Below are positions 7,351 through 16,536 of a stretch of 39,157 nucleotides of DNA, in pieces; the stretch's first letter is position 1; every line of letters starts with the position of its first letter. Origin of the DNA: Terriglobia bacterium (lineage in GTDB: Bacteria > Acidobacteriota > Terriglobia > Terriglobales > Acidobacteriaceae); contig JAJPHW010000039.1 of assembly GCA_021325035.1 (NCBI GenBank), forward strand, positions 1 through 39,157, given 5' to 3'. A model generated the notes under the pieces. The model was not told where the DNA came from and made no database searches. It was given only the letters and a program-made list of their open reading frames with translations. Position numbers and translations under genes: made by a program.

Positions 7351-8820
7351 ATGCGAACACTCGGAACACTACTACTCACCCTGACAACATTTTTAGTTCC
7401 CACTTACGCGCAAACTTCTGACGCGAGCGCGCGGATTATTAACGAAGCACTCAAACCCTCGCCTATCGGTGACAACCTGCAACGGCTGACCGATCAAATT
7501 GGCGGGCGCGTGCCGGGCACTCCCGCGATGACGAAAGCCATCGCGTGGGGCGTGGATGCGTTCAAAGCGGCTGGCGGCGCGAACGTTCATACGGAAGAGT
7601 TCACCATTCAGGCTTCGTGGGCAGAAGGCGCCACGAAAATGGAAGTGGTTGCGCCCGAGCGTTTTGCTCTGCGCGTGAACTCCATCGCGTGGGCGCCGGC
7701 GCTGGCACCGCAGAGTCACGTGCCGGTCATCGATATTGGCTCCGGTTCAACTGCCGATTTCGCCAAAGCCTCAAACCTGGCTGGCGCGATTTTGTTGGTC
7801 CATTCCAACGAAATGTCCACATGGGATGACCTATTCGACGAATATGCACGGGCCCCGGGAATTATTGACCGTGCGGTTGAGGCGAAGGCGCTTGCGATTG
7901 CGTTTCAATCCACGCGTCCGCATGATTTGATGTACCGGCACACGAACGCGGTGAATGGCGAGATTGATCGCATCCCGATGGTGCTGGTTGCGCGAGAAGA
8001 TGCGTCGCGAATGGCGCGGCTGCTGGCATCGGGACAGAAACTCTACGCGGATCTCTCGATTCCCAACCACGTCGGCGGGCCGATTAAAGCAGCCAATGTT
8101 GTTGCCGAAATCAAAGGCAGCGAAAAACCGGATGAGTTCGTGATCCTAGGCGCACATCTTGATTCGTGGGAGTTGGGCACCGGCGCGCTCGATAACGGCT
8201 GCAACGCGGCTTTAGTGATTGATTCATTGCGTGCAGTCAAAGCGTCTGGCTTAACGCCTCGCCGCACGATTCGCTTCATATTGTTTGCCGGCGAAGAAGA
8301 GGGCATGACCGGTTCGTTCTCTTACGTGAGGGCCCATCGCGCCGAACTTGATAAAGCCGCGGGCGTGATTGTCTTTGATTCAGGCATTGGAAGGGTTTCA
8401 GGGTTCTCGGTTGGAGGCCGCAAAGATGCTGTCAATGCGGTGAAGGAAATTCTTACCCCGCTTGCGCAATTCAATGCTGCCGGCGTGACCACGGATGCCG
8501 AATGGGGCACCGACAACTTCGACTTCCTAATCGAAGGAGTGCCCACGCTCGTGGCTAATCAGGAAGAAGGAAATTACCTCATCAACTATCACGCGTCGTC
8601 CGACACCTTTGATAAAGTGGACATCCCGCAGTTGAAAAAGCATACCGCCGAAGCTGCATGGGTAACATTTGCGGTTGCGAACTCGCCTGACCGCATCGGC
8701 CCGCGCCTGAATCACGCTGAAATCGAACAGACTCTGCATGAGACGCATATGGACGACCAGTTGAAGCCCACAACTCTGTGGCAGCAATGGCAATCGGGGC
8801 AGCGGGGAAGAGCGCAGTGA
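7351..8820 (+). CDS. Secreted M28-family metallopeptidase with PA domain
   Basis: This is a zinc exopeptidase of family M28, resembling carboxypeptidase Q/aminopeptidase members with a protease-associated (PA) insert. The 489-residue product begins with a Sec signal cleaved near TYAQT (residues 1-20). The PA domain spans about 120-235 (DIGSGSTADFAKASNLAGAI). Catalytic motifs are GAHLDSW (H269, D271), D281 in GALDNG, AGEEEG (E315/E316), VFDSG (D343) and NYHASSDTF (H414), so the metal site looks complete. The frame is open back to 7153, but that extension overlaps the divergent GloVer gene; the ATG at 7351 starts the signal peptide. Its 128-base upstream gap is shared with the GloVer gene. Confidence 0.9.
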   Translation: MRTLGTLLLTLTTFLVPTYAQTSDASARIINEALKPSPIGDNLQRLTDQIGGRVPGTPAMTKAIAWGVDAFKAAGGANVHTEEFTIQASWAEGATKMEVVAPERFALRVNSIAWAPALAPQSHVPVIDIGSGSTADFAKASNLAGAILLVHSNEMSTWDDLFDEYARAPGIIDRAVEAKALAIAFQSTRPHDLMYRHTNAVNGEIDRIPMVLVAREDASRMARLLASGQKLYADLSIPNHVGGPIKAANVVAEIKGSEKPDEFVILGAHLDSWELGTGALDNGCNAALVIDSLRAVKASGLTPRRTIRFILFAGEEEGMTGSFSYVRAHRAELDKAAGVIVFDSGIGRVSGFSVGGRKDAVNAVKEILTPLAQFNAAGVTTDAEWGTDNFDFLIEGVPTLVANQEEGNYLINYHASSDTFDKVDIPQLKKHTAEAAWVTFAVANSPDRIGPRLNHAEIEQTLHETHMDDQLKPTTLWQQWQSGQRGRAQ

Positions 8821-13283: not shown

Positions 13284-14021
13284 TTACGACTGGGCGGCCG
13301 ATTTCAGCAATTCCCCGAGCCGACGGATATCATCGCCGCTCGTATCCCCGATTACAAAATAACTCAGGCCGTTGCTATTCCAGCTTTCCGTGCTGAAAGA
13401 TAGTTGTTTCCCGGATGTAAGCTGTAGTTTTCCCGGCAGATTTTTGTCCTGAAAAATAAATACAGAAATCTGATGTTTGCGAATTTGATAAATGAGTTGC
13501 GCACCGGGGGATTGGCCGAGATAGGCAACCCGGCCTCCGATGAGGGTAAAGTCTGAGCCGTTCAGTTCTGGCAAGTTGAACGTAAAAGGAATCTTCCCCT
13601 GGAACCAGGGCTTTACCGTGTGCCGGTCTGTCGAAATCACATCCACGGGATTGGCGCTGGCCAGTGTTGCAACATGCAGATCAGTTAATTCGCTATAAAT
13701 GCGATTACGGCTGCCTGCCGTCTGAGATACATACAGCCCCAAACCGATCAACAAGAGAGCAAAAACGGGCACAGAAAGCCATCTCTGCCAGAAAACAGGT
13801 TTTTCCTGAGTTATCCCGCGTTGAACTTTCGCCCGCAATTCTGGACTCGGCGAATATCGCGTGCCTGTCAGTTTGACAGCGCGTTTCATATGCAACTGCG
13901 CCATGGCATCCGCGGAGCATGATGCACATCCGCGCAAGTGCGCGTCCATCGCCTGCATCTCTTGCGCGCTGAGCTCTCCGTCCAAATATGTCTCAATCTT
14001 CATGCTGAAAGAGTCGCCCAT
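13284..14021 (-). CDS. Membrane-anchored anti-sigma factor with zinc-finger (ZAS) domain
   Basis: This is the likely partner and inhibitor of the ECF sigma factor just upstream. In the 245-residue product the N-terminal cytoplasmic part carries HLRGCASC (H28-x3-C32-x2-C35), the zinc-coordinating ZAS core. A single membrane helix follows near residues 82-100 (VPVFALLLIGLGLYV), and the remaining about 140 residues are periplasmic and would sense the signal. The ATG at 14021 follows the sigma stop by one base, and its AGGAGA ribosome site is formed by the last sigma codons, so the two are translated as a pair. The periplasmic part mentions no domain I recognise. Confidence 0.88.
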   Translation of the reverse strand: MGDSFSMKIETYLDGELSAQEMQAMDAHLRGCASCSADAMAQLHMKRAVKLTGTRYSPSPELRAKVQRGITQEKPVFWQRWLSVPVFALLLIGLGLYVSQTAGSRNRIYSELTDLHVATLASANPVDVISTDRHTVKPWFQGKIPFTFNLPELNGSDFTLIGGRVAYLGQSPGAQLIYQIRKHQISVFIFQDKNLPGKLQLTSGKQLSFSTESWNSNGLSYFVIGDTSGDDIRRLGELLKSAAQS

Positions 14022-14022
14022 T

Positions 14023-14523
14023 TCATCTCCTAACGAGCTTCACTTGCAAGGCTTGCCGCAAATCCCGTCGTGCTCGCGCCAAACGCGACATTACCGTTCC
14101 TATAGGAATCGAGAGCGTTTCTGCAATTTCTTTGTAGGGCATCTCCTCGACGTCGCAGAGAAGCACCACTTCGCGATAATGCAGCGGCAGGGCTTCAATT
14201 GCTTTTTGCAGCAATTGCTGTTGCGATTGATCAATGAAAATGCTTTCCGGCGTCTCGGCCTCTGCAATGCTCTCCGCGGCTTCGTCGAGTTCAACCTGAA
14301 CGCTCGTGGCTTTTAATCCTGTGCGCGAAGTCAAAAAAGTATTGCGTAAAATGCGATAAATCCATGCGCGAAAATTTGTGCCCGGCTGAAAGGATGAAAA
14401 TCCCCGAAGCGCTTTGGAATAAGTCTCCTGCACGAGGTCGTCGGCCTCAGACCTGTCCTGCGTCAACCAATGCGCAAAGTTGTAGAGCTGATCAAAAAGC
14501 GGCATAGCCAGTTCAGCAAACAT
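14023..14523 (-). CDS. ECF-type RNA polymerase sigma factor
   Basis: This is an extracytoplasmic-function sigma factor with only regions 2 and 4. Region 2 shows FAHWLTQDRSEADDLVQETY and FRAWIYRILRNTF. Region 4 shows LPLHYREVVLLCDVEEMPYKEIAETL and IPIGTVMSRLARARRDLRQAL. The frame stays open to an ATG at 14577. I choose Met at 14523 (166 residues) because a promoter matching the divergent one has its -10 at 14565-14560, inside the longer frame, so transcription would start after 14577. The shorter form also begins right at region 2. A GTG at 14550 is a third option. Autoregulation is therefore expected. The ZAS anti-sigma gene follows immediately. Confidence 0.88.
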   Translation of the reverse strand: MFAELAMPLFDQLYNFAHWLTQDRSEADDLVQETYSKALRGFSSFQPGTNFRAWIYRILRNTFLTSRTGLKATSVQVELDEAAESIAEAETPESIFIDQSQQQLLQKAIEALPLHYREVVLLCDVEEMPYKEIAETLSIPIGTVMSRLARARRDLRQALQVKLVRR

Positions 14524-14559
14524 CGCGGATGTCTCGCGGTCCTTTGGCACCTCACTAAA

Positions 14560-14588
14560 GTAAACCAAACGGCCCATGATTTATTCCC
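14560..14588 (-). promoter_or_regulatory. ECF-type promoter of the sigma/anti-sigma operon
   Basis: On the minus strand GGGAAT (14588-14583) is followed by exactly 17 bases and then GTTTAC (14565-14560). The same arrangement and spacing occurs on the opposite strand for the phosphoesterase operon. GGGAAT...GTT is an ECF-style -35/-10 pair. Predicted transcription would begin near 14553, which pushes the sigma start codon downstream of 14577. Confidence 0.6.
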
Positions 14589-14608
14589 AAATTACCCAAA
14601 AATATTGC

Positions 14609-14637
14609 GGGAATAAATCGCCCTGTTCGCAGTTATC
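14609..14637 (+). promoter_or_regulatory. ECF-type promoter of the phosphoesterase/CuA/cytochrome operon
   Basis: GGGAAT (14609-14614), a 17-base spacer, then GTTATC (14632-14637). Its -35 block GGGAATAAATC (14609-14619) is the exact reverse complement of 14578-14588, so two divergent promoters mirror one another around a 20-base centre. Start of transcription is expected near 14645, leaving a leader of about 24 bases with GAGGAG before the ATG at 14669. Confidence 0.62.
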
Positions 14638-14668
14638 CACTGTGCAAGCCAATTTGAGGAGTCAAAAC

Positions 14669-15661
14669 ATGAAGCCAGATCGCAGATCATTCATGAAGAT
14701 CGCCGGAACTTCTTTGGGAATCGGCGTCCTTTATAGCGCTGTGCCTGCTGCCGCGCTCACCGGCGAAGCAGGAGAGATGTTTAGTTTTCTGGGCAAACGT
14801 AACGGCGAAAAAGTCACGCCGTTTAGCTTTGTGCAACTTAGCGATGCGCACGTAGGGTTTAATGGCCCTCCGGATCCATTGGGTACCAAAGCATTTGAAC
14901 GCGCTGTGGAGATGGTCAATGCGCTTCCACAACGGCCCGATCTAGTGCTATTTACGGGCGATCTCACACACGATACCGAAGACAAAGACGTTCATGCCCA
15001 ACGCATGAAGCAGTTCAAGGAAATCTCCAGCCGCATGAATGTCCCACTGATCAAATGCGTTCCGGGAGAACATGATGCGGGCCTCGACCATAGTGGGTTG
15101 TACCGCGAATTCTTCGGGGAGACTTACTATTCCTTCGACCATCGAGGCATGCACTTTGTCGCATTGGACAATGTTTCTCAGGGAAAACCCAAGGTTGGCG
15201 CAGAACAGCTCGATTGGTTAAAGAAAGACCTTGCGCGATTTCCGAAATCCGCACCCATCGTTGTTTTTACCCATCGCCCCCTCTTCGATCTAAAGCCCGA
15301 CTGGGAGTGGTTTACCAGCGACGGCGATGAAGTCATGAACGTGCTTGTGCCTTACGAAAACGTAACGGTGCTTTACGGTCATATTCACCGCGATGATACG
15401 CACGAGGAAGGCCATGTGCATCATTACGCGGCAAAGTCGCTGATTTTTGCCTTCCCCGATCCTGCAAAAGTTGCCGATAAGAAGCCCATTCCATTCGACA
15501 AAGATCAACCATTCAAGAACCTCGGGATTCGGCAAGTGCAAGCGAATGCCAAAGGTTCGACTTCCACAAGCTCGATCGCCATTAGCGACATTGAGCTAAC
15601 AGCCCGCGAATTTTTGGGCATCAACGGTGTGCATCAGATTCTGAAAGATCCAAGTTTATAA
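14669..15661 (+). CDS. Tat-exported calcineurin-like metallophosphoesterase
   Basis: This is a binuclear-metal phosphoesterase secreted by the Tat route. The 330-residue product starts with the twin-arginine signal DRRSFMKIAGTSLGIG (residues 4-19). Metal ligands follow the family order: D59 and H61 in SDAH, D98 in TGDLTHD, GEHD (133-136, where most relatives have GNHD), H202 in FTHRPL, and H238/H240 in GHIH. The Asn-to-Glu change at 134 affects a usual metal-bridging position. The open frame reaches 14576, but GAGGAG at 14656-14661 fixes the ATG at 14669. It heads an apparent operon with the CuA and cytochrome genes and is divergent from the sigma factor that probably controls it. The substrate is unknown. 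Confidence 0.88.
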   Translation: MKPDRRSFMKIAGTSLGIGVLYSAVPAAALTGEAGEMFSFLGKRNGEKVTPFSFVQLSDAHVGFNGPPDPLGTKAFERAVEMVNALPQRPDLVLFTGDLTHDTEDKDVHAQRMKQFKEISSRMNVPLIKCVPGEHDAGLDHSGLYREFFGETYYSFDHRGMHFVALDNVSQGKPKVGAEQLDWLKKDLARFPKSAPIVVFTHRPLFDLKPDWEWFTSDGDEVMNVLVPYENVTVLYGHIHRDDTHEEGHVHHYAAKSLIFAFPDPAKVADKKPIPFDKDQPFKNLGIRQVQANAKGSTSTSSIAISDIELTAREFLGINGVHQILKDPSL

Positions 15662-15683: not shown

Positions 15684-16055
15684 ATGAAGTCTTTCTATAC
15701 CAGATTTTTATTGATTGCTTTTGTCACGGCGGTGTCGTTTTTTTCGGCAGGGCCCATGTCCACGCCCGTGAATGCGAAATCCCCACGGGTAGTCGAGATC
15801 ACGGCGAAACGGTTCGGCTTTTCTCCAGATACAGTCACGTTGAAGAAAGATGAAACCGTCGTTCTCCGGCTCAAAAGTGAAGACGTTACTCATGGGTTCT
15901 TTTTACGTGCGCTGAAGCTGGATGAAGACATTTCGCCGGATTCTCCAACTGACATTACGGTCACGCCGACAACTGCCGGTACCTTCACGACGATTTGCGA
16001 TCATTTTTGTGGCGCCAATCACGGCAACATGAAGATGACGATTGTTGTCGAGTAG
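15684..16055 (+). CDS. Small soluble CuA-type cupredoxin (cytochrome oxidase subunit II-like)
   Basis: This is a 123-residue exported cupredoxin with a predicted binuclear CuA centre for electron transfer. A signal or anchor covers residues 1-30. The ligand set is H70 (DVTHGFF) plus C105, C109, H113 and M116 in CDHFCGANHGNM, which matches the C-x3-C-x3-H-x2-M spacing of COX II and N2O reductase. The residue at i+2, Glu in COX II (bound through its backbone), is His107 here. There is no long two-helix anchor and no subunit I gene nearby, so this is not a normal oxidase subunit. It lies 22 bases after the phosphoesterase and 10 bases before the cytochrome. AAGGGAAAG precedes the start. Confidence 0.85.
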   Translation: MKSFYTRFLLIAFVTAVSFFSAGPMSTPVNAKSPRVVEITAKRFGFSPDTVTLKKDETVVLRLKSEDVTHGFFLRALKLDEDISPDSPTDITVTPTTAGTFTTICDHFCGANHGNMKMTIVVE

Positions 16056-16065
16056 AAATCGTCCA

Positions 16066-16536
16066 ATGATTCAACAAATCAAACGATACGCGCTGGTTGC
16101 AAGTTTGCTGATCTTAAGCGGCTGCGCGGTACGGGAACCGGGCGCATGGGAAACGGCGCTCGTATATCAGGCGAAACGGAACATCACGGTGGGCGGAACA
16201 AAAGACGCGAATCCGCTCGCCGCTTCCGAAGAAAACATCCATGCCGGACAGAAGATCTTCGGCCAGTACTGCATGGTCTGTCATGGACTCGACGGGCAGA
16301 ACACCGGGGTTCCGTTCGCCGATAGAGTATCTCCGCCCGTTCCAGCGCTGAACTCGCAGAATGTTCAGCGATATACAGACGGTCAACTGAAGTGGATCAT
16401 CGAACGCGGCATATTCCCCTCCGGCATGCCTGCATCGAGAGGTATGCTCAGCGATGAGGAAATCTGGGAATTGGTGCTTTACGTCAGGCATTTGCCTACG
16501 AAGGGAAGTCTGGGCGAACCGCAAGTCTATAAATAG
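16066..16536 (+). CDS. Lipoprotein monohaem cytochrome c
   Basis: This is a 156-residue class I-like cytochrome c. The signal ends in LILSGC, with Cys20 as the lipidation site. Haem attachment is C69-M-V-C72-H73, and the distal ligand is probably M121 in SGMPA. The sequence LSDEEIWELVLYVRHL is the usual C-terminal helix of such small cytochromes. The frame is open to 16042, overlapping the CuA gene, but only the ATG at 16066 gives a proper lipoprotein signal. It is the last gene of the sigma-linked operon and probably exchanges electrons with the CuA protein (inference). It converges with the epimerase gene with three bases between the stops. Confidence 0.9.
   Translation: MIQQIKRYALVASLLILSGCAVREPGAWETALVYQAKRNITVGGTKDANPLAASEENIHAGQKIFGQYCMVCHGLDGQNTGVPFADRVSPPVPALNSQNVQRYTDGQLKWIIERGIFPSGMPASRGMLSDEEIWELVLYVRHLPTKGSLGEPQVYK

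Follow-up and report, generated by a model that had tools for sequence, protein, structure and literature searches.

Two divergent gene sets in a 39,157-base stretch of acidobacterial DNA (the window) are separated by a region that carries a perfect 11-bp inverted repeat, and the question raised by this locus is whether the symmetry reflects an operator, an RNA structure or a pair of promoters. A sequence-only reading had proposed mirrored ECF promoters, one for a sigma/anti-sigma pair and the other for a phosphoesterase–cupredoxin–cytochrome operon, and comparison with relatives supports this well: the two candidate promoters are conserved and covary with the clade of the sigma factor. We conclude, with a probability of about 0.87, that positions 14563–14634 hold two independent, back-to-back promoters of the type (G)GGAATAAA-N17-GTT (N17 being counted from GGGAAT) that would both be read by the adjacent ECF sigma factor. 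From sequence comparison we infer that the sigma factor recognizes both promoters, that it is autoregulated and that its control of the neighboring operon is direct. The features of the locus are as follows.

13284–14021, minus strand: anti-sigma factor gene; zf-HC2 domain (Pfam) that includes H-x3-C-x2-C and is followed by a segment judged hydrophobic from inspection of the translation
14023–14550, minus strand: ECF sigma factor gene, with a reassigned, conserved GTG start at 14550–14548; Pfam Sigma70_r2 and r4_2
14563–14565, minus strand: putative sigma promoter, -10 core GTT (GTTTAC), 17 nt from GGGAAT; sites conserved in the sigma clade
14580–14588, minus strand: putative sigma/anti-sigma promoter, -35 element GGGAATAAA; conserved upstream of orthologous sigma genes
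14578–14588, plus strand: left arm of the 11-bp inverted repeat
14589–14608, no strand: spacer between the two -35 elements, 20 bp, 75% A+T
14609–14619, plus strand: right arm of the 11-bp inverted repeat
14609–14617, plus strand: putative phosphoesterase operon promoter, -35 element GGGAATAAA; conserved in relatives
14632–14634, plus strand: putative phosphoesterase promoter, -10 core GTT (GTTATCCAC), 17 nt from GGGAAT; target-side sites share GTTaTc.Ac
14656–14661, plus strand: Shine–Dalgarno sequence GAGGAG of the phosphoesterase gene
14669–15661, plus strand: calcineurin-like phosphoesterase (Pfam Metallophos) with an N-terminal RRSFMK motif in the translation
15684–16055, plus strand: cupredoxin/COX2-like protein (Pfam Cupredoxin_1 and COX2)
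16042–16536, plus strand: cytochrome c (Pfam Cytochrome_CBB3 and Cytochrom_C)

Pfam searches placed the sigma, zf-HC2 anti-sigma, phosphoesterase, cupredoxin/COX2-like and cytochrome c genes where they had been claimed to lie. The sigma factor matches regions 2 and 4 alone, the domain content of the ECF (group IV) class, and, as is also characteristic of that class, a zf-HC2 anti-sigma gene lies directly downstream and adjoins the sigma gene in most of the loci compared. The RRSFMK motif of the phosphoesterase is presumably Tat-like. The named relatives of the phosphoesterase (n = 11) come from Acidobacteria/Terriglobia metagenome bins, except for one labelled Candidatus Binataceae, which makes class Terriglobia, within the Acidobacteriota, the most likely origin of the window.

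The repeat itself is as it had been described. Its arms, GATTTATTCCC and GGGAATAAATC, are 100% complementary and enclose a 20-nt loop, and a script found no second perfect inverted repeat (arms of at least 11, loop of at most 40) across the window. On the minus strand GGGAAT (14588–14583) is followed by 17 nt and GTT (14565–14563), and on the plus strand GGGAAT (14609–14614) is likewise followed by 17 nt and GTT (14632–14634). When the 121-bp intergenic stretch was shuffled with a Markov chain, a comparable repeat arose in 41 of 20,000 shuffles and GGGAAT-N17-GTT on both strands in none of 20,000. A third copy of GGGAAT-N17-GTT occurs at 8064 on the minus strand of the window, the full GGGAATAAA version being confined to 14609(+) and 14588(-). 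Throughout the 3.86-Mb assembly GGGAATAAA-N13..15-GTT was found at these two intergenic sites alone, and the reversed control gave one match. No site resembling a sigma-70 promoter was found in 14450–14750.

Are these elements conserved? Loci were drawn from a search with the sigma factor (61 genomes), from searches with the phosphoesterase and from fetched neighborhoods; four loci that duplicated a place already included (L008, L011, L114 and L115) were dropped. The window's sigma clade was defined by at least 52% identity. Fifteen loci with distant sigma factors (L018–L032), none of which contains GGGAATAAA, were left out of the site counts; their sigma factors may belong to other ECF groups. 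Sites were sought by script within 320 nt upstream as xGGAAT or GGGAAC, N16–19 and GT[TC], and where the script returned several matches the choice was made by eye, the match followed by AAA or AAT and closest to the gene being taken. A sigma-side site was present in 17 of 22 clade loci (15 with N17-GTT, one of these being GGGAAC, in L121, and two with N18-GTT), and a phosphoesterase-side site in 13 of 14 (12 with N17-GTT, one with N18-GTT), counts that come from related sequences and not from independent trials. The 320 nt upstream of the sigma gene held no site in five of the 22 (the second copy in L104, and L106, L110, L111 and L120), the region in L106 being cut by the contig end, and L120 was also the one locus without a phosphoesterase-side site. 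In 11 of the 13 site-bearing loci the phosphoesterase gene is the divergent neighbor of the sigma gene, the exceptions being L104 and L106. The hand-picked sites align on GGGAATAAA; those of sigma genes often have GTTTAC, and those of target genes GTTaTc.Ac.

A search of 399 genomes of the class for TTTATTCC-N16..46-GGAATAAA pairs found them in 24, compared with 11 for the reversed control. In 13 of the 24 the pair is upstream of a phosphoesterase homologue, no more than about 320 nt from its aligned part, and in another (G006) it is upstream of the sigma gene; the remaining ten correspond to the control level. A phosphoesterase homologue (1e-30 or better) was present in 86 of 299 genomes of the class, but only in 13 genomes, a minority, does the exact divergent pair stand beside one.

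Conservation also bears on what the symmetry represents. The claim of a shared 11-bp repeat stands for the 9-bp -35 element GGGAATAAA and fails for the trailing TC; because the TC that completes the arms is not conserved, we regard the repeat, from its alignment with relatives, as a common 9-bp -35 element extended by two chance matches. The claim of a mirrored, equal geometry holds insofar as N17 is found on both sides, but the distance between the arms is not fixed: the two hexamers of the 13 divergent pairs measured stand 20, 22, 32, 22, 32, 19, 44, 19, 18, 21, 22, 22 and 31 bp apart. Pooled, the spacers between the -35 elements of these pairs are 58% A+T, compared with 46% for the window. 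A gap mode near 18–22 may reflect a shared upstream region, and it is our guess that the spacer serves as a common UP-type region.

A sister clade of sigma factors, 34–41% identical to that of the window, is also found beside phosphoesterase genes. Support in the tree is 100/99 for the sister clade and 82/67 for the window's own clade, with a warning of long-branch effects against the outgroup. All nine sister loci have N18 on the sigma side, seven with GTC and two with GTT; three of the nine (L015, L017 and L122) had been included after GGGAATAAA was seen there or in a shorter locus at the same place, and the other six were found through phosphoesterase searches regardless of motif. The phosphoesterase side of the sister loci is not uniform: five carry N18-GTC (L015, L017, L042, L043 and L122), two N18-GTT (L118 and L119) and one N17-GTC (L038), and no convincing site was seen on that side of L123. 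Two loci lack a sigma factor of this kind; one (L041) has N18-GTC and the other (L040) has no site. L034, a member of the window's clade, has N18 at both promoters. Promoter and sigma factor thus change together, and the simplest reading of these alignments is that the adjacent sigma factor reads both promoters. The paired changes in the two clades could be used to map the sigma residues that set spacer length and the last base of the -10 element.

Three other explanations were weighed against the two-promoter reading. Perfect 11-bp arms within a divergent intergenic region are what one might see if the repeat were a single operator at which a dimeric regulator controls both genes. However, the gap between the arms ranges from 18 to 44 bp over the 13 pairs, the arms are not conserved beyond 9 bp, and the same element with N17-GTT stands alone before other genes. 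Because the -35/-35 gap varies so widely, we favor two promoters over one operator and rejected the latter as very improbable. The repeat could also be an RNA hairpin, an attenuator or a terminator, and a 58-nt stretch does, on either strand, fold better than shuffled versions of itself (z = -3.1 and -2.9); but no terminator-like site was found, the repeat would lie outside both mRNAs if transcription starts at the positions predicted below, and the element is one-sided in several loci. This explanation was rejected as well, and we give it next to no credence.

It is conceivable, though we think it improbable, that the promoters are real but have a different ECF sigma factor of the same genome as their main reader, the adjacent sigma gene being just one of its targets. 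The genome has 14 matches to the window's sigma factor, itself included (13 others), and cross-activation between ECF sigma factors has a precedent in RpoE1 and RpoE4 of Sinorhizobium meliloti, as cited passages of PMC6180224 describe. Against this, the element and the sigma gene travel together, spacer length and the third base of the -10 element track the clade of the adjacent sigma factor, and the next match in the genome is just 35% identical.

We return to the two-promoter reading and to its consequence for the start of the sigma gene. The sequence-only reading had moved the start to an ATG at 14523, a proposal that finds no support in the relatives: their residue at this position is T, S, E, D, F, K, G or A, and L107 alone among them has a GTG there. 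The ATG not being conserved, we rejected this start, and we also rejected 14577, the start of the longest open reading frame, because it lies upstream of the -10 element. Sixteen of the loci that have a sigma-side site were inspected, and in all 16 an in-frame ATG, GTG or TTG was found 9–15 nt past the GTT of the -10 element, where it falls 9–11 codons before a conserved F[EA]x[LR][AS]. By this alignment the conserved start in the window is GTG 14550–14548, which reads VPKDRETSAMFAELA and is placed 12 nt after the -10 element of the sigma promoter. A further reason for rejecting 14577 is that 11 of the 22 clade members meet a stop in the sigma frame no more than 21 codons from residue 19, the others remaining open for longer. 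The correction has a practical side, in that an open-reading-frame caller would put the start 27 bases too far upstream.

At ECF promoters transcription begins about 7–11 nt after the GTT. A start at this distance would leave the sigma mRNA a leader of about 2–6 nt, with no space for a Shine–Dalgarno sequence. As GTG 14550 is only 12 nt past the -10 element, the autoregulated sigma mRNA is probably leaderless or nearly so. Leaderless genes have been predicted in three of three Acidobacteria genomes, averaging 13.3%, in the portion of PMC3160421 cited here. Whether the same division holds throughout the clade, with a self-promoter that abuts the sigma start (leaderless) and a target transcript led by a Shine–Dalgarno sequence, so that one sigma factor would serve two modes of translation, we consider an even bet. 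Taken with the sister clade and its N18-GTC self-promoters, such an arrangement would offer a natural series for following the evolution of spacer length and -10 readout with the sigma factor.

Taken together, these features would make up the following circuit. The anti-sigma factor, which is of the zinc type and probably membrane-anchored, would release the sigma factor, and the freed sigma factor would transcribe its own operon leftward, giving positive feedback on both sigma and anti-sigma, and the phosphoesterase–cupredoxin–cytochrome c operon rightward. The leftward transcript would begin a few bases before the GTG (at about 14556–14552) and the rightward transcript, with its Shine–Dalgarno leader, at about 14641–14645. 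From the cupredoxin, the cytochrome and the zinc anti-sigma factor we would guess that the inducing signal is copper, redox or envelope stress.

A circuit in which an ECF sigma factor activates itself and a neighbor is of a known, standard kind. In a review, about 55% of the ECF factors covered by a prediction method are described as autoregulated, and at the EcfG locus the divergent units nepR-ecfG and phyR are both EcfG-dependent (PMC8103513, in the passages cited). The general stress locus thus has two divergent units under one ECF sigma factor, as we propose for the window, but EcfG belongs to another sigma group, with a promoter of the form AAC / CGTT and a PhyR response regulator. The literature covered, which included few subscription papers, showed no acidobacterial case or experimental study of this sigma lineage that we recognized.

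How, then, does the window's sigma factor relate to SigR and SigH? Its nearest solved structures are 6jcy (7e-38), whose chain name gives SigH and SigE, and 5zx2 (SigH; 2e-33). Its best NCBIfam model is PRK12533 (146.3 bits; cut-off 248), followed by TIGR02947 SigH_actino (137.1 bits; cut-off 251.55). The sigma factor is, by these sequence models, SigH/SigR-like, yet because its score for TIGR02947 is below the cut-off we do not class it as SigH. SigR promoters are described as GGGAAT(G/C)-16 nt-(C/G)GTTG and those of SigH from Corynebacterium glutamicum as GGAAT-N18-19-GTT (parts of PMC3489674 and PMC10012870). SigR–RsrA of Streptomyces and SigH–RshA of Mycobacterium and Corynebacterium therefore share with the window the GGAAT and GTT cores, as far as the quoted promoters go, together with an anti-sigma gene downstream of sigma. 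Autoregulation from an upstream promoter offers a further likeness: SigR activates its own operon in this way, producing a longer isoform (PMC5472188, as excerpted), but the self-promoter of the window abuts the sigma start codon. In spacing the window differs, at 17 being one less than the 18–19 from GGAAT of the published SigR/SigH examples; 18 was found at 2 of 17 clade sites and 9 of 9 sister sites. The window's regulon, unlike that of SigR/SigH, looks tiny.

The anti-sigma factor also departs from the SigR/SigH type in that a hydrophobic segment is present and an N-terminal cysteine is absent. It scores 32.6 bits with TIGR03988 antisig_RsrA, below the cut-off of 62.5. By an eye count, 20 of 28 aligned anti-sigma sequences have a cysteine 26 residues before the histidine, which we take to be the position of the redox cysteine of RsrA. 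The anti-sigma factors of the window, L033 and L035 lack it and keep H-x3-C-x2-C, so the window does not have the RsrA-type combination of the two. These three anti-sigma factors may have lost redox control.

Another parallel is offered by the ECF26 factors of S. meliloti, for which the excerpts of PMC6180224 give a -35 element GGAATA and a -10 element GT. ECF26 is marked by a GGAATA/GT promoter together with an anti-sigma factor that has a transmembrane segment; the window has such a promoter, and its anti-sigma factor shows, to the eye, a hydrophobic and presumably transmembrane segment in the translation. In the same excerpts the promoter of the rpoE1 operon is GGGAATAAATC-N13-GTC, equivalent to N18-GTC from GGGAAT and like that of the sister clade, and several promoters of RpoE6 targets, SMa0142 among them, are GGGAAT-N17-GTT, like those of the window; the N18-GTC and N17-GTT types that separate the two acidobacterial clades thus recur among the ECF26 promoters quoted there. 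The described target operon of RpoE4 (sulfite oxidase, cytochrome c and pseudoazurin) likewise recalls the cytochrome/cupredoxin operon of the window. RpoE6, according to that source, faces its target, but the target is a protease and that of the window a phosphoesterase. On pSymA we found a locus (L209) with an S8 peptidase gene divergent from sigma and anti-sigma genes, and we read its sigma factor, 36% identical to the window's, as RpoE6. GGGAAT-N17-GTT precedes the peptidase gene, and none was found before the sigma gene in the stretch scanned. In the tree this sigma factor and an Agrobacterium relative are separate from all acidobacterial sigma factors.

The extent of the regulon was gauged with GGAATAAA-N14-GTT in 15 genomes chosen because they hold a relative of the sigma factor or the phosphoesterase, which gave 54 matches, compared with 10 for the reversed control. 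All but one (in G035) were inspected and sorted by hand. Ten of these 53 are sigma-side sites, and 15 either face a sigma gene or precede a phosphoesterase or cluster gene. Among the 15, five in L104 (G006) and two in L106 (G036) stand before the phosphoesterase and repeat-type secreted proteins (Pfam); in L112 no clear gene follows, and L172 lies on a different contig from its sigma gene. Another ten, associated with secreted proteins, a DoxX protein, an NAD/FAD oxidoreductase, a ferritin-like protein and a cupredoxin, are plausible, and the last 18, many of them inside coding frames, look like chance.

In the window's own genome there is, besides the two known sites, only one further strong match to GGAATAAA-N14-GTT, at G000:C23:11035–11059(-). 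This site, which has the target-type GTTATCAAC, lies 3 nt past the upstream gene's stop codon. Some 70 nt separate its GTT from the ATG of a small secreted-type protein of 90 aa, whose N terminus resembles a signal peptide and which found no relative in 60 other genomes searched. Among 22 one-mismatch matches, of which 21 (all but that at window 23448) were inspected in context, the G000:C23 site stood out; two others (L140 and L143) are intergenic too. A two-mismatch scan was discarded as near background (297 matches, compared with 228 for the control), and only the one-mismatch matches were used. The direct regulon in this genome, judged by such matches, looks tiny, with three sites. The analysis gives an Acidobacteriota sigma lineage a specific candidate promoter and a small putative regulon (phosphoesterase, cupredoxin and cytochrome c), which in relatives would also include secreted beta-propeller or repeat-type proteins.

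Some further sequences deserve mention. The target-side -10 region GTTATCCAC (14632–14640) looks like a DnaA box, the consensus for which is TTATCCACA. Many of the family's target promoters have a similar GTTATCnA, so the sequence more probably belongs to the promoter itself. GGGAATAAA-N-GTC has five extra matches in the window's genome, four of which overlap longer open reading frames, and we make no claim for them. The fifth, GGGAATAAA-N14-GTC on contig G000:C146 (L127), reading on the minus strand from 1957, is intergenic and lies 179 nt before a 403-aa open reading frame without a Pfam match. Among relatives, L104 (G006:C3, 5000–16800) has a 6.8-kb stretch around its sigma gene and phosphoesterase with six GGAATAAA-N14-GTT sites, in a cluster that also contains secreted/beta-propeller proteins, a cupredoxin and two additional sigma-like genes and that looks like a local regulon of this type on a larger scale. 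Finally, a single 6.8-kb contig (G036:C109, L178) carries four sites, three of them before genes for a small secreted protein, an NAD/FAD oxidoreductase and a ferritin-like protein and the fourth at the contig end.
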